Source of the DNA: Gemmatimonadota bacterium | GTDB lineage: Bacteria; Gemmatimonadota; Gemmatimonadetes; Longimicrobiales; Gaopeijiaceae | NCBI GenBank assembly: GCA_022560615.1 | Contig: JADFSR010000003.1 | Coordinates: forward strand, 1 to 64,000 | Direction of reading: 5' to 3' | DNA: 64,000 nucleotides | In this document: piece by piece, positions 6,788 to 52,433 of the stretch | Layout of the letters: every line of letters starts with the position of its first letter | Position numbering within the stretch: the first letter of the stretch is position 1 | The notes under the pieces: model-generated | Seen by the model: only the letters and a program-made list of their open reading frames with translations | What the model was told of the DNA's origin: nothing | Database searches by the model: none | Translations under genes and position numbers: made by a program

Positions 6788-8464
6788 CTAAAGCACCTTC
6801 AGGTACTCGAGCAGCGCGCATTTCTGCTCTTCGGTCAGCATGCGGAATTCGTGTCCCGCGTTGGAGCGTCCCGGCTCACGCGTGTCGTAGAGGGCGCTTC
6901 GCGACCAAGGCTCGTATCCCTTTGGATAGCGATACACTCCGTCGTGGCCGAGCGCGCCCGCGATCCCCACGAGCTCGTAGTCGAGCATGTGCCCGCCCAC
7001 GTAGAAGCGCTCGGGTCGCTGCTCTGCATGCATCAGGTGCCACAGCGTTGGCACGGAGCCGTTGTGCAGATAGGGAGCGGTGGCCCAAAGGCCACCGAGG
7101 TCCGGCGCTATGTATCCTCCGCCGTTCAACGGCTCGATGTGCTCCAAGTAGCCCACTTCCCCCAGGAGTGCTGAGAGCTCCTCGTGCTGCGCGGTAGCCC
7201 AGCGCACGGAGTCGGTCAGCATTCGGTCCTGCGGGGTGAGACGATTAGGGTGGACCAGGAGCCGGACGTCGCTCAGGCCCTCCGAGTACTCTCCGTGGCA
7301 CGAAGCGCACGCGGTCTCAAAGACGTCCGCGCCCCTTAGCGCGAGCGCGCGATCGACGGTCCCTGGGAACGGAGGTGACTCGGTCGTGTGCAGGAAGTCG
7401 AGAACCTCCCGCATTTCGGGGATCCTTTCAAGGGCGTCCTGCGGAGGAACGCCCTGTGACGCTGTAATCTGGAGCGAAGTAACAGCCGCGAGGTCATCGA
7501 GGTGATCCGCGTCGACGTCAGATCGCTTCATGGCGCCGTAGCGCTCGCTCGCCGGTGCCGCCAAGACTCCATCGATCAACAGCGACCGCCGCATCGTGGT
7601 CCCAGCTAGGTCCGGGGCCGACGTCCACGCCACCTGATGCGCCCGAGAATCGCTGCGGAGCGCACCCATCGAGAAGCGGACTGAGCCAAGACTATTCGAG
7701 AGCCCCGGTCCTCCAGGCAACAGCCTTCCGAACTCTTCGGCCCGGAATGCCAGTTGCTCGCGAGCGGAGCTGGAGGCGAACTTCCGAAGCGTGGAGAGCT
7801 CGCGCTCCGAGACTTCGGGGAAGAGCACCGCGATCGTGGCGATCAAGGAATCCGGCGTCTCGAGCTCGCGCTGCAACGCGGCAAAGGCGCCGTCCGAATA
7901 GGCGCTCAGGTCGATCGACGCGTTCGGCAGCCCGAGCCACACCTCGCCAGTCGGCCGTCCGTCGGCGCCGAAGAGGGGTCCGGCGTGGCACGTCGCGCAC
8001 CCCAGGTTCGCGACCTCGATCTCGACGGCCGGGAAGCCTCGCCTCGCCATCCCGGCGAGCATGCCCATGGGGCGTTCGAATCGAGGCTGTGGTCCGGTCC
8101 AGTTGGCCACGGCCGTCGGTCGAATGAAGCCGTACTCCTCGAACACTCGGTCGAGCGTACGCCGATTGATCGGAGCCCCATCGCTCAGATGGCGATCCCT
8201 CACCAGCGCCGCACCGACCAACTTCCACGGCCATACGTTGCGACGGAGGTTGTCCGTGGTGAGGCTACCGAAGTCGTCGAACAGGAAGCGCACCTGACCG
8301 CGAACGTTCGACGGCGCGGTAGCGAAGGCTCCGTGCTCGCTCAGCAGCTCCATGCCTTGGGGCTCGGCCTCCGCGTAGCCACGCATGAAGCGGCCAGGCA
8401 GGTGGCATCCGGCCAGAGTAGTGACCAGCAGCGTGATGAGTAGCGGTGCTCGTATGCGGTCCAT
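6788..8464 (-). CDS. Dihaem cytochrome c lipoprotein (cytochrome c peroxidase-like)
   Basis: 558 residues from the ATG at 8464, with GGGAGG upstream. The next in-frame start (8536) would bury the signal peptide. Lipobox Cys20 (LAGC) indicates membrane anchoring. Two haem c sites are visible: CATCH at 156-160 and CASCH at 386-390. The C-terminal domain has PYLHNGSVPTLWHLM, typical of the peroxidase/MauG/YhjA group and of uncharacterised dihaem cytochromes. It probably transfers electrons in the periplasm. It is the last of four consecutive minus-strand lipoprotein genes and may take electrons from the PQQ-type dehydrogenase next to it. True peroxidase activity is unproven. Confidence 0.85.
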   Translation of the reverse strand: MDRIRAPLLITLLVTTLAGCHLPGRFMRGYAEAEPQGMELLSEHGAFATAPSNVRGQVRFLFDDFGSLTTDNLRRNVWPWKLVGAALVRDRHLSDGAPINRRTLDRVFEEYGFIRPTAVANWTGPQPRFERPMGMLAGMARRGFPAVEIEVANLGCATCHAGPLFGADGRPTGEVWLGLPNASIDLSAYSDGAFAALQRELETPDSLIATIAVLFPEVSERELSTLRKFASSSAREQLAFRAEEFGRLLPGGPGLSNSLGSVRFSMGALRSDSRAHQVAWTSAPDLAGTTMRRSLLIDGVLAAPASERYGAMKRSDVDADHLDDLAAVTSLQITASQGVPPQDALERIPEMREVLDFLHTTESPPFPGTVDRALALRGADVFETACASCHGEYSEGLSDVRLLVHPNRLTPQDRMLTDSVRWATAQHEELSALLGEVGYLEHIEPLNGGGYIAPDLGGLWATAPYLHNGSVPTLWHLMHAEQRPERFYVGGHMLDYELVGIAGALGHDGVYRYPKGYEPWSRSALYDTREPGRSNAGHEFRMLTEEQKCALLEYLKVL

Positions 8465-43216: not shown

Positions 43217-44821
43217 CTAACCCCGAGGTGTCACCGACAAGCGAGGAGGAACCCGCGCCTTCGTCGCTTGCTCCAGCACATACGCGTAGCCGAGCAACTC
43301 GGCCTCGGTCCACAGATCCCCGATGAACGCGAGCACGAACGGCGTACCGTCCTCGTAGTAGCTGTACGGCACCGTCACGACCGGTACGCCCAAGTGGTTG
43401 ATGATGTTGCTGGGCAGCTCCGGCCAGTTGTTCGGCTTGTAATCCGGACGCTCCGGATCTTCAATCAAATCACGGTTCGGCGCGCCCGCCTGGGGGAAGA
43501 AGAGCCCGTCCAGATCGTGCTCTTCGAGCACGCCGCGATACAGCTCACGCATCCGCATACGCCACGCCTGGAAGGCATCCCCGGCCTCGGTCGCACTCGG
43601 CCTCGCAGGCGGCGCGGGGCCGCGCCCGCCACGCCCGCCACGCCCACCGCGCCTACGTCCCCACCGGAACTCCCGGCCGCTCAGAGCCTCCCATTCCTCG
43701 ACGCTATCGAACGGAGCGTTCGGCCCCAGGCCCTGCATATAGACGAGCATGTCGTATGCGCGCTGCGAAGGGACCCGGCCGCGCTCGCCATACAGCTCGA
43801 TGAAGCCGCTGCCCTCGAACGGATCCTCCACGACCTCGGCACCAAGACTTTCCAGCGTGGCGATCGCGTCCCGGTACTCGGCCTCGGTCAGCGGATCGAG
43901 TGGGAGCCACTGGCTGCGCCAGCCAGGACCCACGAGCCCGAAGCGCTTGCCCTCGAGCGTCGCACTGTCGAGCGCAGCGAGATAGCCACCCTCGGGCATG
44001 TGACCCACCGCAGCGTACGTCGCGGGATCCTCGGGCGTCGGACCCGCGATCACATCGAGCGTCCGGGCTGCATCGCGCACCGTGCGAGCCAGCGGGCCTA
44101 CCACGTCTACGTATGTCCCGCTCACCGGCACGATGCCCTCGATAGGAGCGAGACCGTATGTGGCCTTCACCGCGACCAGCCCTTGAGCCGAAGCCGGGTT
44201 TTGCAGCGAACCACCCGTCTCGGTCCCGAGCCCGAGCACCGCGAAGCTGGCGTTGACCGCGGTCGCGGTCCCACCGCTCGACCCACCGGGCACCTTGTCC
44301 ACGTTGTACGGGTTGAGCGTCACCCCGGCGACGGTGCTCTCGGTGCGCGTCCCATGGCCCGCGAAATCGGGCAGGTTGGTCTTTCCGAGTATGATCGCGC
44401 CGGCGGCCCGGAGGCGGTCGACGACGGCGGCGTTGTCGTCCGGGATCATGTCGACGCCACCGGTCGCGCTGCTGAAGCCTTCGAAGCCCGCCGTCGTGAC
44501 TCGTCCGGCCTGGTCGATGTTGTCCTTGATGACGACGGGCACGCCGTGCAGCGGGCCCACGGGCCCAGTGGAAGCGTACAGCTCGTCCAGATCGGCAGCG
44601 ATGAGCAACGCGTCGGGGTTCATCGAGATGAACGCGTTGTAGTGGTCCTCGTACTGTTCGATGCGATCGAGGAATGCGCGCGTGAGCTCTACCGCAGTGT
44701 ATTCCCCGTCGGCGTATGCGGCCTGGATCTGGTCGACGGTGAGTTCCACGACGTCGATCGCTTGGGCGCTCGCAACAGAGGGGCACCAACACATCGCCCC
44801 AGCCCAAAGCCACCGACGCAT
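43217..44821 (-). CDS. Secreted amidase-signature hydrolase with an Arg/Gly insert
   Basis: 534 residues from the ATG at 44821. An earlier in-frame start would overlap the upstream gene and hide the signal peptide (WCPSVASAQ). The amidase-signature triad is visible: Lys in VVIKDNID near 100, Ser in GGSSGG near 175 and the nucleophile Ser in TETGGSL near 200. It hydrolyses amide bonds in an unknown extracytoplasmic substrate. Near residues 385-405 it has an Arg/Gly-rich insert (GRRRGGRGGRGGRG) absent from typical family members. It starts 11 nt after the M20 amidohydrolase gene, so they form an operon. Confidence 0.9.
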   Translation of the reverse strand: MRRWLWAGAMCWCPSVASAQAIDVVELTVDQIQAAYADGEYTAVELTRAFLDRIEQYEDHYNAFISMNPDALLIAADLDELYASTGPVGPLHGVPVVIKDNIDQAGRVTTAGFEGFSSATGGVDMIPDDNAAVVDRLRAAGAIILGKTNLPDFAGHGTRTESTVAGVTLNPYNVDKVPGGSSGGTATAVNASFAVLGLGTETGGSLQNPASAQGLVAVKATYGLAPIEGIVPVSGTYVDVVGPLARTVRDAARTLDVIAGPTPEDPATYAAVGHMPEGGYLAALDSATLEGKRFGLVGPGWRSQWLPLDPLTEAEYRDAIATLESLGAEVVEDPFEGSGFIELYGERGRVPSQRAYDMLVYMQGLGPNAPFDSVEEWEALSGREFRWGRRRGGRGGRGGRGPAPPARPSATEAGDAFQAWRMRMRELYRGVLEEHDLDGLFFPQAGAPNRDLIEDPERPDYKPNNWPELPSNIINHLGVPVVTVPYSYYEDGTPFVLAFIGDLWTEAELLGYAYVLEQATKARVPPRLSVTPRG

Positions 44822-44832
44822 GGTCCGCAAGC

Positions 44833-46467
44833 TCAGCCCCCGTCCTGCCCCTCGCCATCCTCGGAGATCGGCCGGGTGCGAATCGTCGGATACTCGATCC
44901 CGAGCTGCTCGAGATACGTGTCGAAGCGCGTCGCGTCGAAGTAGAAGGGACGCATCAGGGGGCGCCACCGCGCCATCTTGTCCTCGTTAAGCCAGATCGC
45001 AGGTTGGTCCGTCGGCGCGATGAACGGAATGTATTCCGTTTCAACGGTCTGTACGTCGTTGAAGTAGTCCCAGGCGGCTTCGACGGTCTCCCCATCGAGA
45101 AAGAGGTCGAGCAGTGTCAGAGCCTGGACCTTCGCGCCCGCGACTCCACCCTTGTGCGCGATCGGGGTCGCCATCGCGATTCCGTTCGCCCAGTTGTGTC
45201 CGGGACCGCCACTCATGTTCGACGGATAGCGGAGCGTCACGGTGGGCATGTTCCAGGAAACGTCGCCGATGTCGTCCGAGCCGCCGCCGAGGGATCGCGA
45301 CAGGTCGACCGGACCACGAAGAGAGCCGATCGTGTCCGGAAGGCCGGTGATGTCAACCCCCATCTCGGCCTGGAACGCCTCGGCGAAGCGCCGGTCGTCG
45401 TCGCTCCACTCCGGCATGCCTACGCGCTCGATATTGGCGTAGGTGACCTCCGCGACCGGCTTGCTGAAGTGCCGACCCCACGCCGATCCGACCGTCATGA
45501 TCGTGTCGACCTGGGTGCCCGTCATGAGGGCCGCGCCCTGGGCCATCAGGACCGCCGCGTCGTATTGCTCCTTGGTGAGCTCGTAGTCACGCTCCCGGAA
45601 GTAGAACCAGATCGTCGCGGTTTGAGGCACCACGTTGGGCTGGTCGCCACCCTCGACGATGATGTAGTGCGACCGCGCCGCCGGCCGCAGGTGCTCGCGC
45701 TTGAACTCCCACGCCTGCCCCATGAGCATAATGGCATCGAGCGCGGAGCGGCCCCGCCACGGTGACCCCGCCGAGTGAGCGCTTTCACCCGTGAAGCGGA
45801 ACTGAACCGACCAGAGCGCGTTTCCTCCGGCCTGCCCCCAGCTCATGCCGAAGCCGTTTGACACGTGCGTGAAGAGGTTCACATCGACGCCGTCGAAGAC
45901 GCCTTCGCGGACAAAAAACGCTTTCGACGCAACCAACTCCTCCGCGACGCCCGGCCAGAGCAGCAGCGTCCCGTCGATGTTCTCCCGCTCCATCAGCTCC
46001 TTCACGACTAGAGCGCTGACGATGTTTACCGCCTGACCCGAGTTGTGCCCCTCGCCGTGCCCCGGCGCCATGGGAATGATCGGGTCGCGGTACGCCACGC
46101 CCGGCTTCTGGTTCGACTGCGGGATGCCGTCGACGTCCGAGCCCATCGCGATCACCGGCGAGCCCGTGCCGTTCGACCATCGAGCTGTCCACGCGCTCGG
46201 TATGCCTGCGATGCCCAGCTCGATCTCGAAGCCCTCCGCCTCGAGTAGCTCGGTCAAGTAGCGCTGGCTCTCGAACTCCTGCATCCCGAGCTCACCGAAC
46301 GAGAAGAGATGATCGATGATCTGCTGGACGAGCTGGGCTCGGTCCTGGACCATCTGCTCTGCTTCGTCCTTGAGCGCCGAGAGGCGGGAGTCGGCCTGCG
46401 CCGTGACGTCAGCGGCGTTGGCAGTCGTCACGGCCCCGAAGAGCGCGAGAAGAATCAATCGGCGCAT
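44833..46467 (-). CDS. Secreted M20-type amidohydrolase (AbgB-like)
   Basis: 544 residues from the ATG at 46467 with a signal peptide (AVTTANA). It is an M20/AbgB-like amidohydrolase. Metal-site motifs are GSDVDGIP near 110, GHGEGHN near 140, EELVASKA near 175 and PGHNWANGIAMATPIAHKG near 450. HSAGSPW marks the dimerisation domain. Family members cleave N-acyl or peptide-like amides such as aminobenzoyl-glutamate. It is the upstream partner of the amidase and both are secreted, consistent with stepwise breakdown of an amide. The divergent gene apbE lies 201 nt away. Confidence 0.85.
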   Translation of the reverse strand: MRRLILLALFGAVTTANAADVTAQADSRLSALKDEAEQMVQDRAQLVQQIIDHLFSFGELGMQEFESQRYLTELLEAEGFEIELGIAGIPSAWTARWSNGTGSPVIAMGSDVDGIPQSNQKPGVAYRDPIIPMAPGHGEGHNSGQAVNIVSALVVKELMERENIDGTLLLWPGVAEELVASKAFFVREGVFDGVDVNLFTHVSNGFGMSWGQAGGNALWSVQFRFTGESAHSAGSPWRGRSALDAIMLMGQAWEFKREHLRPAARSHYIIVEGGDQPNVVPQTATIWFYFRERDYELTKEQYDAAVLMAQGAALMTGTQVDTIMTVGSAWGRHFSKPVAEVTYANIERVGMPEWSDDDRRFAEAFQAEMGVDITGLPDTIGSLRGPVDLSRSLGGGSDDIGDVSWNMPTVTLRYPSNMSGGPGHNWANGIAMATPIAHKGGVAGAKVQALTLLDLFLDGETVEAAWDYFNDVQTVETEYIPFIAPTDQPAIWLNEDKMARWRPLMRPFYFDATRFDTYLEQLGIEYPTIRTRPISEDGEGQDGG

Positions 46468-46601: not shown

Positions 46602-46630
46602 TTGAATGGTTATAAGGGATCGGGTAGTAT
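46602..46630 (+). promoter_or_regulatory. Sigma-70-type promoter of the apbE operon
   Basis: TTGAAT (46602-46607) and TAGTAT (46625-46630) are separated by 17 nt, the ideal spacing. A transcript starting near 46637 would have a leader of about 30 nt before the ATG at 46669. Nothing else in this 200-nt divergent gap looks like a promoter as clearly. Confidence 0.65.
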
Positions 46631-46644
46631 GAGGCGGCAGTAGT

Positions 46645-46659
46645 TGAGAACGACTCTCA
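46645..46659 (+). promoter_or_regulatory. Fur-like 15-bp palindrome in front of apbE
   Basis: TGAGAACGACTCTCA has arms TGAGA/TCTCA and resembles the 7-1-7 Fur/DtxR-type iron box (TGAnAAT-n-ATTnTCA) with five of seven arm positions paired. It lies just downstream of the predicted transcription start and 10 nt before the apbE ATG, where a bound repressor would block expression. No Shine-Dalgarno is visible there. The regulator is inferred. Confidence 0.5.
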
Positions 46660-46668
46660 CTCGCAACC

Positions 46669-47739
46669 ATGCGGGAATCTTCGGTGGCTCCCCCCCTTTT
46701 CTCGGCCTTGGCGCTCGTCGCCTCCATGCAGGCCGCCCCGAGCGACTCGTCACAGCTAGTCTCGCGAGAGGCATGGGTGATGGGCACGAGACTCGGAGTG
46801 GTCGTGGAAGCCGCCTCGGTGGCCGAGGCGAGCCAGGCCACCGAGAACGTCATCCGTGAGGTCGAACGGCTCGAGCGCATCTTGAGCACCTGGGATCCGC
46901 GGAGCGAAATGCACGCGGTCAACACCGCGGACGTCGGGAGACCGATCGCCCCAGGGGCGGAGCTCGTGTCCTTGCTCGCCGAGGCTGAGCGATACTCCCG
47001 CATCTCGGGGGCCGCCTTCGACGCTCGAATCGGAGCGCTCGTCGACGCGTGGGACCTCCGCGGCGCTGGAGTCGTGCCGGCGGCAGACGCGCTTCTGGCG
47101 GCACTGAAGGCCACGGGTGCGAGCGCCATCTCAGTCGACGAGCGCACCGGTATCGTCACCCGACACGCGGCCGCCGCCTGGATCGACACGGGAGGCTTCG
47201 GAAAGGGAGCCGCACTTCGTTCAGCGGCCCGTGGACTCGAGTCGGCAAATGTAGACCGGGCTCTCATCGATCTCGGCGGCCAACTGTGGGCGCAGGGGAG
47301 CGCACATAATCCCTGGTCCGTGTATGTCGCTCACCCTACGGAGCGACAACGTCCGGTCGCCCGACTCGAAGTGCACGGCGTTTCGGTCGCCACGAGCGGT
47401 ACATCCGAGCGCTTCATCGAGATCGACGGCGTGCGCTGGGGACACATCCTCGACCCTCGGACCGGGCACCCTTCGCCCGCGTGGGGAAGTGTGACCGTCG
47501 TGAGCGCCGACCCGCTCGAAGCCGATGCCCTGGCCACCGCCCTCTATGTAATGGGCCCACAGGCAGGCCTCGCGTGGGCTGAGCGTTACCCGGAGTTGGA
47601 CGCGCTCTTCCTGGAGGCGGAGGGCGGAGCGTTGACCGCTAGTTGGACTCGAGGCATGGAGCGGTGGTTGATCGAGCCTCCCGTCTCCTCGACCCCTCAC
47701 CCGCAGACGCGAACAGAGCAAGAAGAAAACCACCGATGA
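46669..47739 (+). CDS. apbE: FAD:protein FMN transferase ApbE
   Basis: 356 residues with a signal peptide (ALVASMQAAPS). ApbE covalently attaches FMN from FAD to a threonine in target proteins outside the cytoplasm. The core shows ERILSTWDPRSEMHAVN, the DTGGFGKGAALR motif near residue 170, ALIDLGG, GHILDPRTGHP near 260 and the metal-site SADPLEADALATALYVMG near 285. The stop overlaps the porin-like gene (ATGA). The likely target is the FMN-binding protein two genes downstream. Expression is probably set by the promoter/palindrome at 46602-46659. Confidence 0.93.
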   Translation: MRESSVAPPLFSALALVASMQAAPSDSSQLVSREAWVMGTRLGVVVEAASVAEASQATENVIREVERLERILSTWDPRSEMHAVNTADVGRPIAPGAELVSLLAEAERYSRISGAAFDARIGALVDAWDLRGAGVVPAADALLAALKATGASAISVDERTGIVTRHAAAAWIDTGGFGKGAALRSAARGLESANVDRALIDLGGQLWAQGSAHNPWSVYVAHPTERQRPVARLEVHGVSVATSGTSERFIEIDGVRWGHILDPRTGHPSPAWGSVTVVSADPLEADALATALYVMGPQAGLAWAERYPELDALFLEAEGGALTASWTRGMERWLIEPPVSSTPHPQTRTEQEENHR

Positions 47740-49019
47740 AACGCATGAAAACGTTGTCTTGGCGAGTGGAGATCGCACTCGCGGCCCTAGTCATATCAGT
47801 CGCGCCCGCTCCACGACTCGACGCACAAGACGCCGACTCGGTGCGCCTCGCAACGCTGGAGCGCAGGATCGAGGCCATCACGCGCGAGCTGGAGCGCATG
47901 CAGCTCGGCCGCGACGTCGTCGAGGCGGATTCTTCGATCCAGGGCCTCGGGCCCGCCGCCTCGAAGGTGTACCGTGTGAACCAGGGCGTCTCCCTCGGCG
48001 GCTACGGCGAATTCCTGTATGAGAACTTCTCGGCGAAGCGGGAAGACGGCTCCGCGTCTGGCGCCCTCGACAGGTTCGACGCGGTGCGAGTGATCCTGTA
48101 CGTCGGGTACAAGTTCAATGATCGCCTGCTCTTCAATTCGGAACTCGAGATCGAGCACGGAAAGGAGAGCTTCCTCGAGTTCGCGTACCTCGACTACCTG
48201 TTGACCGACCACATCGGGGTCCGCGGTGGAATGCTGCTCACGCCGCTAGGTCTCTTGAACGAGCTGCACGAGCCGCCCGTCTTCCTCGGCACGGAGCGTC
48301 CAGTCACGGAGAGCCGGATCATCCCGACCACTTGGCGGGAGAACGGCATCGGGATCTTCGGTGCCGGCGACGCTTTCTCCTGGCGCCTCTACCTGATGAA
48401 CTCCTTCAACGGCGCCGAGTTCAGCGCCATGGGCCTTAGGGGCGGCCGCCAGAAGGGCTCCAAGGCGCTCGCCGAGGACATGAGTGTCGCGGGCCGCTTG
48501 GACTATACCGGCATGCCCGGGTTGCTTCTCGGCCTCTCGGCGTACAGCGGAGACACGGCTCAAGGCCGGGAGATCAATGGACAGCCGGTGGGCGGTCGTG
48601 TCCGCATTTGGGACGCACACTTCGACTACAAGACACGCGGTTGGGACCTTCGGGCGCTCGTCGCCGGCGCGCAGGTGAGCGACGTAGCGGCCATGAACGC
48701 ACTCATCGGCCTGGAGGGAGCGGAAGGCATCGGAACGGACATGCTGGGCTGGTACGTTCAGGCGGGCTACGACGTGTTGCGCGCCTCCCGGTCCGCCCAT
48801 CAACTGATCCCCTACGTGCGCTACGAGAGGGTGAACACGCAGCGCGGGGTCGCGCCGGGATTCTCTCGGAACCCGGCGACCGACCTGACCGTGACCTCGA
48901 TTGGCGCGGCATGGAGGCCGATTCCGCAAGCGATCGCGAAGCTCGGGTATCAGATCCATTCCACCGCCGCGGACACGGGCGTAAACCAGCTGAACGCGTC
49001 GCTGGGCTGGCTTTTTTGA
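47736..49019 (+). CDS. Outer-membrane porin-like beta-barrel protein
   Basis: 427 residues from the ATG at 47736, overlapping apbE by ATGA; earlier in-frame ATGs lie inside apbE. A signal peptide (APAPRLDAQ) is followed by a short coiled coil (LATLERRIEAITRELERM, residues 28-48), as in trimeric porins. Then come amphipathic strands with Tyr/Gly patterns (VSLGGYGEFLYENFS, LLFNSELEIEHGKES, GYQIHSTAAD and a terminal LNASLGWLF with C-terminal Phe). It resembles phosphate-selective/porin O-P type proteins. Position between apbE and the FMN protein suggests it is part of a redox or iron uptake route. Confidence 0.8.
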   Translation: MKRMKTLSWRVEIALAALVISVAPAPRLDAQDADSVRLATLERRIEAITRELERMQLGRDVVEADSSIQGLGPAASKVYRVNQGVSLGGYGEFLYENFSAKREDGSASGALDRFDAVRVILYVGYKFNDRLLFNSELEIEHGKESFLEFAYLDYLLTDHIGVRGGMLLTPLGLLNELHEPPVFLGTERPVTESRIIPTTWRENGIGIFGAGDAFSWRLYLMNSFNGAEFSAMGLRGGRQKGSKALAEDMSVAGRLDYTGMPGLLLGLSAYSGDTAQGREINGQPVGGRVRIWDAHFDYKTRGWDLRALVAGAQVSDVAAMNALIGLEGAEGIGTDMLGWYVQAGYDVLRASRSAHQLIPYVRYERVNTQRGVAPGFSRNPATDLTVTSIGAAWRPIPQAIAKLGYQIHSTAADTGVNQLNASLGWLF

Positions 49020-49567
49020 CGCGCACGGGAGTGGCGGCAGGCGCACTCGCCGTAGTCGCGTGGGCCTCCTCGGTCTCCGCGCAGACGCTGACCCAGGACG
49101 AGGCGTTGGCTCTGGCGTTCCCGGGCGCAGAAGTGGAGCGGCGCACTGCGTTCCTGGACGAAGCCCAGCTCGCACGAGCGTCAGCGCTCGCAGGCCCCGA
49201 TGTCGACGTGGAATCGACGGTGGTGACGTACTACGTCGCGATTCGGCGGGGAGAGCCTGCCGGCGTAGCCTACTTCGACGCGGATCGAGTGCGCACGCTC
49301 CCGCAGGTGCTGATGATCGTGGTCGGCACCGATGGCCGGCTTGCTCGTGTCGAGACCGTCAGCTTCAGAGAGCCGCCGGAGTACCGCGCCCCGGGCGGGT
49401 GGCTGCAACAATTCGCCGGCCGCGCACTGGATGACGACCTCTCTCTCAAGGGGGGGATCGCCAACATCACCGGGGCCACGTTGACCTCCGGAGCGGTGAC
49501 GCGCGCAACGCGTCGTGTGATGGCGCTCCATGCGATCATCGACCCGTTCAGTGCAAACGCGCGATGA
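49016..49567 (+). CDS. Exported FMN-binding domain protein
   Basis: 183 residues. The frame has no ATG near its 5' end. A TTG at 49016 overlaps the porin stop (TTGA) and opens a signal peptide (VVAWASSVSAQ); a GTG at 49031 is the alternative. The FMN-binding domain ends in ITGATLTSGAV (residues 151-161), matching the flavinylation motif, with Thr155 the expected FMN acceptor. SLKGGIANITGA is typical of NqrC/RnfG relatives. It is likely modified by ApbE and passes single electrons in the periplasm. It overlaps the next gene by ATGA. Confidence 0.85.
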   Translation: MTRTGVAAGALAVVAWASSVSAQTLTQDEALALAFPGAEVERRTAFLDEAQLARASALAGPDVDVESTVVTYYVAIRRGEPAGVAYFDADRVRTLPQVLMIVVGTDGRLARVETVSFREPPEYRAPGGWLQQFAGRALDDDLSLKGGIANITGATLTSGAVTRATRRVMALHAIIDPFSANAR

Positions 49568-50178
49568 CGGGTTTCCAGCGCTGGTTCCTGTACGGCTCGA
49601 CGGTCGTGACAGCGGTGAGTGGCATCACCTACTTCGTCATGAAGCGCTTCCTCGAGCCCCTGGACCCGTGGGCAGTGATCAACCACCCGCTGGAGCCCTG
49701 GGCACTCAAGGCACACATCCTCAGCGCCCCGCTGATGCTCTTCGCCGTGGGCCTGATCACGACACAGCACATCTGGCGGAGCCTCAAGTCCAGCCTCCCG
49801 ACCGGGCGGCACAGCGGCCGGATCGTGTCGTATGTCTTCGGACCACTCGTGCTGAGCGGATACTTGATCCAGGTGACGACGTCGCCGCTGACGCTCGAGG
49901 TGCTGGCCTGGACGCACCTCGTGCTCGGGGTCGTCGGCGCGGCGGCGATCGGCGTTCACCGAGGGGCGCTTCACGGGCGTCGGAGACAGCGGAAGGGAGC
50001 GCTGCCCGTGCTGCAGCTTCCCACCCAGCCGGAATCGACGGAGACCGACCCAACAGCCGGCCGCGCTAGTACTCCATCGCGGGCCGGCGCAGATGCCAGT
50101 CGGTCTCGGACTGAAACGCCTGTGCGACGTTCAGGATCTTATCGTCAGCGAAGAGGTCTCCCACGATCGTCGTCGTGA
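49564..50178 (+). CDS. Four-helix membrane protein, possibly cytochrome b-like (DUF4405-like)
   Basis: 204 residues. Four hydrophobic helices: about 6-28, 42-70, 80-102 and 108-130. Histidines sit at helix 2 (KAHILSAP, TTQHIW) and helix 4 (WTHLVLGVV, GVHRGALHG), positions that could bind haem b. This resembles DUF4405-type proteins that occur with ApbE and FMN-binding proteins. Its last ~37 codons, and a polar tail before them, run antisense through the amidase remnant (50066-50178), so the native C-terminus may have been lost. It would carry electrons across the membrane to the FMN protein. Confidence 0.65.
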   Translation: MTGFQRWFLYGSTVVTAVSGITYFVMKRFLEPLDPWAVINHPLEPWALKAHILSAPLMLFAVGLITTQHIWRSLKSSLPTGRHSGRIVSYVFGPLVLSGYLIQVTTSPLTLEVLAWTHLVLGVVGAAAIGVHRGALHGRRRQRKGALPVLQLPTQPESTETDPTAGRASTPSRAGADASRSRTETPVRRSGSYRQRRGLPRSSS

Positions 50179-50578
50179 GCGGCATCGTCGTCGGGCTGTC
50201 GGCGTCGGGATTCCGAACACCGAAGTCATACGGCACGATCACGGCCGGGTGGCCGGTATCGTTCTTGAGACCGACCGCCCCGGAGCCGCTCACGAACATG
50301 TCGAAACCGTCCATCGCTTCGGCCATCTCCTTCATGAGGATGAGCCGGCGACGCTGGCCATTGATGTAGTCGAGAGCGCGCACGTCCCGTCCACGCCGGA
50401 ATCGACCGCGGCGTCTGCGCTCGGCAGCTTCGAGGTCTTCGGGCAGCGGCTCAGGCTCCACGCCATCGGGGGCGATGTGATAGTCGAACGCCGACGCTGA
50501 CTCGGCGCTGAGCTGGTCCATTCTGGCGCTCGGTAGCTCGCTCATCTCTCTGAGGTTGGCGCCGAGGTCGTTCCTCAC
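50066..50578 (-). pseudogene. Amidase, C-terminal remnant
   Basis: The 170-residue frame starts at a GTG just after an in-frame stop and encodes only the last third of an amidase-signature protein: ALDYINGQRRRLILMKEMAEAMDGFDMFVSG, VGLKNDTGHPAVIVPYDFG and TTIVGDLFADDKILNVAQAFQ. The catalytic Lys-Ser-Ser region is missing. It has an Arg-rich insert (ERRRRGRFRRGRDVR) at the place where the amidase at 43217 has its Arg/Gly insert, which makes it a paralogue. Homology ends at about 50580 where the IS91 relic begins. Confidence 0.8.
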
Positions 50579-50772: not shown

Positions 50773-51150
50773 GGCGGAGCATGGGCGGGATCATTGGGCG
50801 TCGGCTGTTTCCTGGTTCGTGAAGGGGGAGACCCTGCTGAAAGACGAGGCTAATTGAACCGCCCCGAGAGGGACCATCCCCCATGCGAATGATCTTGTCG
50901 ATTCCCTTCCGACCCATCCAACGTGCTCCAAGGCTTTCAGCCGTGTGGCCGAACATCCGAAGTTCCCTGTCTGCTTCGCGCTCGACCGCCACCTCCAACC
51001 CTTCGAGGCCTAGCTAGTTCGCATCCGGAAATTCACAACCGCATAAGAGACAACGAGTAACGGCGCATCCGGGGGTTGCCTTATCCATGTGTAGCGCGTA
51101 GGTTGTTGATGCCTAATCACAGCCTACAAGCACACAGGGGAGACCACCGA

Positions 51151-51945
51151 ATGCGCCGTCACGAACAGCTGTCACTGGACCGCCCTTGGATCGAGCACAG
51201 ACACGCTAGCGAACTGGCGAAGATGAGCCAGATCCTGGATAGCCATCCTGACATGGCGGAGCTGATCGAGCAAGACCTGGTGCGTGGCGTGTGCCATCCG
51301 GAGCGGGGCGCGCGCGGTATGAGTGGGGACCAGGTGTTGCGCGCTCTCGTGCTCAAGCAGATGAACGAGTTCAGCTACGAGCTGCTGTCGTACCATTTGG
51401 CGGACTCGGCGAGTTACCGGACGTTCTGTCGCCTCGGCGCACTGGGTTCGACACCCTCACGTTCAGCGTTGGCGGAGAACCTGAAGAAGGTACGGCCCGA
51501 GACGCTGGAGCGGATCCAGAGGATCGTGCTGCGGCATGCAGCCGAGAGCGGCGTGGAACGGGGCCGCAAGGTACGCATCGACGCCACGGTGGTGGAGGCG
51601 AACATCCACGCGCCGACGGACTCGAACCTGCTGTGGGACGGGGTGCGTGTGCTGACGCGGCTGCTGAAGCGAGCGGGTAAGCGCTTCGGGTTCGGGCTTT
51701 GGGCAGACCACAGGCGGCGAGCGAAGCGGCGCATGCTGGCGATCGAGAACACGGGGAGCAAGCGCAAGCGGGGGGATGCGTACCGGGACCTGCTCAAGGT
51801 GAGTCACAAGGTGGTAGGCTATGCCCAGCGGGCAGCCAACTACCTGTGTGTTCAGCACTTGGGAGACTCTGAGGCGCAGGAGTTGGCGAGTGAGCTCACC
51901 CATTACGTGGAGCTGCTACTGCGCGTGATCGATCAGACCGAGCGA
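51151..51945 (+). pseudogene. ISNCY-type transposase, 5' part
   Basis: The ATG at 51151 follows a GGGGAG ribosome site. About 262 codons match an ISNCY-like transposase: HASELAKMSQILDSHPD, RGMSGDQVLRALVLKQMN, SYHLADSASYRTFCRLG and RKVRIDATVVEANIH, the first catalytic Asp region. Family homology stops at RVIDQTER. The frame continues to 52398, but through the antisense strand of a response-regulator gene. The catalytic C-terminal half is missing, so it is inactive. The intact left part suggests a deletion or recombination rather than slow decay. Confidence 0.8.
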
Positions 51946-52433
51946 ACGAGCTTGAACACTTCGATCATGGAGGGATCGCGTCCGATGAGCTGCGGCTCGG
52001 CGCCCGTTTCGGCGACTCCTGACGGGTCCGTGGTGTCCCGACCTCGCTTCCTCCCTCCTTCAGTGGATTCGAGGTCGGCGAGGACGCGCCGGAGCGTGCT
52101 CCGGAGCTGGGTGAGGTCGAGGGGTTTGATCAGGAATTCGACCGCTCCGTCACGCATGGCCGCGGCCACTGTAGGGAGATCCTCATACGCGGTCATCAGG
52201 ATCACGCTGGGCCTACGGTCGCGTTCCTTGAGAACCCGGAGAAACTCGAGCCCACTCATGCCGGGCATCCGGACATCTGAGAGCACGACGTCCGCCTCGC
52301 TCTCACTCAAGGCCTCAAGTGCCGCTTCTCCGGAAGCGGCGGTGCGGACACTCAGGGTTTCCGACTCCAGCGCTTCCGAAAGCACGGTCCGGATCTGATC
52401 GTCGTCGTCGACGATGAGGAGTTGATGAGACAC
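51933..52433 (-). pseudogene. NtrC-type response regulator, truncated at the AAA+ domain
   Basis: 166 residues remain. The receiver domain (LLIVDDDDQIRTVL, phosphoacceptor Asp in VVLSDVRMPGMSG near 55, ILMTAYEDL, FLIKPLDL) is intact. A linker leads to LIGRDPSMIEVFKLVRSV, the first residues of a sigma-54-interacting AAA+ domain, and then the frame ends in the transposase remnant. The ATPase and DNA-binding domains are absent, so it cannot activate sigma-54 promoters. It may survive as a lone receiver protein. No partner kinase is beside it. Confidence 0.85.

Follow-up and report, generated by a model that had tools for sequence, protein, structure and literature searches.

Little is known of how diderm bacteria that use FeoB move inorganic iron through the outer membrane and how they reduce it, and in Bradyrhizobium the reductase for inorganic iron was stated to be unknown (2024, PMC10760861). 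Extracytosolic flavinylation systems combine ApbE and an FMN_bind substrate with a membrane electron carrier, and such clusters are described as linked to the iron transporters VIT1 and P19/FTR1 and to TonB receptors (Meheust et al. 2021, PMC8238504). The DUF4405/FezC cytochromes of flavinylation and ferrosome systems are small, histidine-rich membrane proteins encoded beside apbE and connected with iron (mSystems 2024, PMC11334425). FoxB and FsrB, which are PepSY proteins, and FrcB of Bradyrhizobium are described as four-TM diheme proteins that respond to iron starvation and act before FeoAB by reducing ferric iron in the periplasm (PMC8891985, PMC10760861, PMC9218516). In Francisella, the porin-type outer-membrane protein FupA stands ahead of FeoB in the uptake of ferrous iron (PMC4905997, PMC7432831), and OprP and OprO represent the 16-stranded porins of the Porin_O_P family (PF07396).

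The locus described here lies in a 64,000-nucleotide stretch (the window) of contig JADFSR010000003.1 from a Gemmatimonadota genome, and its features are as follows.

46645..46659, plus strand: Fur-box-like operator TGAGAACGACTCTCA, ending 9 bases 5′ of the apbE ATG
46669..47739, plus strand: apbE, FAD:protein FMN transferase with an N-terminal signal peptide-like segment (Pfam and motifs)
47736..49019, plus strand: predicted 16-stranded outer-membrane porin with an N-terminal coiled coil (AlphaFold2, PDB fold match)
49016..49567, plus strand: putative periplasmic FMN_bind protein with a TTG start and a predicted flavinylated Thr155 in TGATLT (PF04205)
49564..50178, plus strand: four-helix inner-membrane (4-TM) protein, a candidate diheme b-type cytochrome (AlphaFold2, invariant His)

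The open reading frames (46669-50178) follow the order apbE, porin, FMN_bind, 4-TM on the plus strand and overlap at their stop/start junctions (ATGA at 47736-47739, TTGA at 49016-49019 and ATGA at 49564-49567), as the first-pass annotation had described, and its view that they form one transcription unit is supported. The 4-TM reading frame has a conserved core at about 49564-50010; conservation ends at about residue 150, and the tail beyond it overlaps a reading frame on the minus strand at 50066-50578. That frame encodes 170 amino acids that resemble an amidase remnant and have no match in Pfam; it is adjoined by a reading frame with the transposase domain DUF772 (51076-52398), and a full amidase is encoded at 43217-44968. 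The remnant and its DUF772 neighbour together suggest an insertion-damaged amidase just 3′ of the operon.

We consider it likely that this operon is repressed by Fur and encodes an assimilatory ferric reductase, equipped with an outer-membrane channel of its own, that supplies Fe(II) to FeoB-type transporters. The operon would work like the known iron and flavin systems, and by family cut-off it belongs with ApbE and FMN_bind, not with DUF4405 or Porin_O_P. It shares the general plan of the extracytosolic flavinylation systems; however, its membrane subunit falls by Pfam into none of the five classes given there (NapH, MsrQ, PepSY, DsbD and NQR/RNF-like), and the main text of that paper does not mention FeoB or a porin, whereas the operon has a porin and its relatives show linkage to FeoB (PMC8238504). 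DUF4405 has six helices with four central histidines (PMC11334425), whereas the protein of the operon has four helices with four histidines in helices 2 and 4 and, unlike the DUF4405/FezC systems, sits with a porin and an FMN_bind protein. FoxB and FsrB are PepSY proteins, whereas the 4-TM protein of the operon has no PepSY match; the operon also differs from the descriptions of these proteins and of FrcB in having a separate flavin protein and its ApbE. For the FupA system, the portions of the accounts used here name no flavin or heme reductase, both of which are proposed for the operon. OprP/OprO are the best structural match of the barrel, which in the window protein has no Pfam match and about 14% identity to them.

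A Pfam search of the four proteins, which the first-pass annotation had proposed, placed ApbE and the FMN_bind protein above their family cut-offs and left the barrel and the 4-TM protein without a family, DUF4405 included. ApbE matches PF02424 along the entire profile (1-266 of 266) with 225 bits against a cut-off of 25.6, and the motifs MGT, DTGGFGKG, LIDLGG, ATSGTSERF and HILDPRTG can be read directly in its sequence. The FMN-binding protein matches PF04205 with 25.7 bits against a cut-off of 22 and contains the flavinylation motif ITGATLTS, which is kept in its homologues as [S/T/A]GA[T/S]L[T/S]. With both families above cut-off and the motif conserved, ApbE is predicted to flavinylate the downstream protein, as had been proposed on the understanding that the FMN-binding threonine would prove to be conserved. 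The whole genome contains ApbE at three places and FMN_bind at four; since FMN_bind places lie near both other ApbE genes, on another contig, the ApbE of the operon appears to be dedicated to it.

The AlphaFold2 model of the first 165 residues of the 4-TM protein (pLDDT 92.8) has four helices, at 3-29, 44-75, 82-104 and 108-143. H51 and H69 lie in helix 2, H118 and H132 in helix 4, the two helices in which the first-pass annotation had placed histidines, and H41 is placed in the loop that joins helices 1 and 2; all five are invariant in 61 aligned homologues, and conservation of the membrane histidines had likewise been named as a point on which the proposal hung. A distant member from Bradyrhizobium keeps the equivalents of H51, H69, H118 and H132 and is without the H41 motif. 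The charges follow a positive-inside pattern, in which the N-terminus, loop 2 and the C-terminus face the cell interior and the acidic loop 1, which holds H41, faces outwards. From this topology, helices 2 and 4 would run in the same direction, so that H51/H118 on the periplasmic side and H69/H132 on the cytosolic side would form two bis-histidine heme sites. These two pairs of conserved transmembrane histidines are what is expected of a diheme b-type cytochrome, and invariant residues, helix placement and charges together make the protein a candidate for one; its suggested role as an electron feeder is supported.

The label "DUF4405-type" given to this protein did not hold. Membership of DUF4405 (PF14358) was rejected because the protein lies below the cut-off and has four helices, not six; the Ideonella member reaches 17.4 bits against a cut-off of 26.7. 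Among 62 homologues, weak profile matches were obtained to DUF4405 in 12 (E up to 0.1, best 2e-4) and to cytochrome b561 in eight (best E 2.4e-5). Neither the window 4-TM protein nor the barrel exceeded the cut-off of any Pfam family, NCBIfam being searched as well, and no PepSY domain was matched by Pfam in the former. Sequence searches of the PDB with the barrel and 4-TM families returned no match, and a PDB fold search with the 4-TM model returned nothing significant. The protein is best placed in a distinct short family, remotely like DUF4405 and cytochrome b561.

Whether the gene order recurs in relatives had been put forward as a decisive check, and it recurs widely. Orthologous barrels (53-87% identity) have the same partners before or after them, allowing in short loci for an ApbE cut at a contig end (L009) and a 4-TM gene lost in a run of N (L007). 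A barrel-profile scan of one genome per species returned 80 loci, and partner HMMs found FMN_bind in 77 loci and ApbE and the 4-TM protein in 67 each. Of the 83 loci with a porin homologue, 62 have all four genes, as do 52 of the 63 that leave enough space on either side; loci with a different 4-TM type are included in these counts. By record title the loci belong to about ten phyla (Gemmatimonadota, Acidobacteriota, Planctomycetota, Elusimicrobia, Verrucomicrobia, Bacteroidetes, Caldithrix, Delta- and Gammaproteobacteria, and others). The commonest order is apbE-barrel-fmn-4TM, and barrel-fmn-4TM-apbE, barrel-apbE-fmn-4TM and barrel-fmn-apbE-4TM also occur. The association of these genes is conserved far beyond chance. 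That the porin, under Fur control, and the flavin-based electron chain are independent units which merely happen to lie together is scarcely credible: the barrel family is also found without the other genes, but the complete loci extend across phyla and through at least four gene orders.

Within Gemmatimonadota the occurrence is patchy, with a strong 4-TM match in 13 of 200 genomes, and the module is also carried on Ideonella and Bradyrhizobium plasmids. A second 4-TM type replaces the usual one in six loci (L092 at 7125-7907, L051, L070, L081, L091 and L095), and HHalign of the two types, A against B, detected no homology. This replacement by an apparently unrelated protein points to a membrane electron donor that can be exchanged, whereas the porin and the flavin protein stay.

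Iron control, which had been raised as a possibility, is the part of the proposal that has gained the strongest evidence. A Fur-box consensus of the 7-1-7 type was built from general knowledge, and TGAGAACGACTCTCA agrees with it at 13 of 14 informative positions. Across the 4.5 Mb genome, TGAGAAYGAYTCTCA is matched in full at 46645-46659 alone, the reversed control giving 0, and this is also the sole site with at least 12/14 in the 64 kb window; such a predicted Fur box in the promoter region is expected of a Fur regulon gene. In 41 of 79 loci a site of at least 12/14 lies close to where the first gene of the module starts, compared with 3 of 417 for the remaining genes in these loci (Fisher p 3e-34, a value that is overstated because related loci are not independent, yet the sites span several phyla); at 13/14 or more, the numbers are 22 and 0. 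A simpler palindrome, TGAGAN5TCTCA, gives 31/79 against 7/417. About half of the loci are without a clear Fur box. Judged from this predicted site and its enrichment in related loci, the operon is apparently switched on by iron starvation. A sigma-70 promoter was not found at the threshold of the tool. Two other sites in the same genome, each with one mismatch, lie upstream of an ECF-sigma-like reading frame and between murA and an unknown reading frame, and were set aside as likely chance matches.

In some Acidobacteriota the site has the sequence TGAGAYTGARTCTCA, which may be that of a variant regulator. Upstream of eight loci (L053, L057, L060, L063, L073, L079, L083 and L098), a TGAGAYTGARTCTCA-like palindrome stands in place of TGAGAATGATTCTCA, possibly as the site of a different iron regulator.

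Iron genes also adjoin the module. Among 54 mostly upstream, co-directional neighbours, a set that includes two downstream genes of L092, the most frequent Pfam families are FeoB and Fur, with eight occurrences each; the iron-dependent repressor domain comes next with five and FeoA with three. Local HMMs found Fur in 16 loci, FeoB in 11 and DtxR in 5, in all 21 of 83 loci; in about three quarters, no iron gene was seen within about 6 kb. Two loci (L085:5148-13284 and L090:1117-8525) have the arrangement DtxR-porin-ApbE-FMN-4TM-FeoA-PepSY_TM-132 aa-FeoB, where 132 aa denotes an unassigned protein of that length, an apparent complete ferrous-iron operon. In L092, a stretch from which ApbE is absent, the alternative 4-TM protein ends in a FeoA domain (74 bits), and FeoB comes directly after it. 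The genome of the window has FeoB twice and Fur-family genes, and its module is not adjacent to feo. The Fur box and the Feo and DtxR neighbours argue for assimilation of iron and not for respiration.

The gene set, its conservation, the motifs, the operator and the neighbouring iron genes are observations, whereas electron transfer through two hemes, flavinylation, iron as the substrate, its consumption by FeoB and its entry by the porin are deduced. The assimilatory ferric reductase might operate as follows. Under iron starvation Fur would leave the operator, and the porin would let iron or small iron chelates into the periplasm. ApbE, by what is known of its family, would load the periplasmic FMN protein with FMN at Thr155. 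The 4-TM protein, holding two b hemes (at H51/H118 near the periplasm and at H69/H132 near the cytosol), would draw electrons either from quinol or from a donor in the cytosol and pass them to the FMN protein, which would reduce free or loosely chelated Fe(III) to Fe(II) in the periplasm for import by FeoB-type transporters.

The passage through the porin is the weakest step of this scheme. That an outer-membrane barrel is encoded inside the operon, between apbE and the FMN gene, agrees with the AlphaFold2 model, which has 16 strands and an N-terminal coiled coil (pLDDT 85.6) and matches solved porins, best OprP (2o4v, E 2.4e-12) and also general trimeric porins; Porin_O_P (PF07396) has no match in the window protein and is matched by eight of 47 homologues (best E 5e-8). 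Of the two cargoes suggested for the barrel, electrons or iron, the second fares better: iron or small iron chelates are most likely what the porin admits, and electrons inside it are less likely, since a 16-stranded barrel is by our own estimate too narrow for the FMN domain, in contrast to a porin-cytochrome conduit. This width also weighs against a flavin-based extracellular path, in which electrons would reach external Fe(III) minerals or electrodes through the barrel or by released flavins, for respiration or attack on minerals. An outer-membrane barrel, a flavoprotein and a membrane electron donor do share one operon, and Geothrix, a genus known for iron reduction, carries the module (L104); such a path is nonetheless improbable, as the porin is of ordinary size, no multiheme cytochrome is among the flanking Pfam families listed, and the linkage to Fur boxes and Feo/DtxR fits assimilation. 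Conserved Glu and His residues of the barrel were considered as a module-specific iron filter and dropped, the same residues being present in paralogues outside the module; the conserved acidic residues common to these paralogues therefore do not prove iron selectivity.

The redox chain might instead serve another periplasmic reaction that is induced when iron is low, for example as the electron source of a peroxidase or in the repair of oxidised proteins, with the porin as a general nutrient channel. The Ideonella module adjoins a cytochrome c peroxidase and a two-component system, and barrel paralogues adjoin di-heme oxidoreductases; enzymes of this kind do not recur in the set of scanned neighbours, however, and the FeoA/FeoB/DtxR operons and the FeoA fusion are specific to ferrous iron uptake, so that we regard this alternative as unlikely.

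Three further barrel loci may be recorded. The paralogue on contig C2 of the same genome (L118:7625-10511) adjoins genes for a Rieske-like protein and a di-heme oxidoreductase-like protein; in Parabacteroides (L121), porin, imelysin and di-heme oxidoreductase occur together. The barrel family seems to be tied to redox and iron genes more widely. A Candidatus Manganitrophus plasmid (L024, 7884-9047) carries a barrel homologue of 37% identity alone, the other three genes being absent, with a strong Fur-box-like site upstream.

Genome evidence ties porin, flavoprotein, candidate diheme protein and regulators of iron together in one unit that occurs in about ten phyla, many uncultured groups from soil and sea among them. 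The unit has an outer-membrane channel of its own, an unusual trait, and gives a probable function to two protein families without Pfam assignment, the 4-TM protein and the porin. In the open-licence literature, which misses many journals, no account of a module combining these components was found. With moderate confidence, we propose that the module is an undescribed cross-phylum machine for reductive iron uptake in diderms, in which a Fur/IdeR-controlled iron porin, a covalent-flavin ferric reductase and a new diheme cytochrome family supply FeoB. It could be the kind of inorganic-iron ferric reductase noted as missing for Bradyrhizobium japonicum (PMC10760861), and the plasmid of another strain of the genus carries the module. 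On that plasmid, of Bradyrhizobium sp. ISRA443 (L119, 4548-8009), the four genes are annotated as hypothetical, FMN-binding, FMN transferase and hypothetical.
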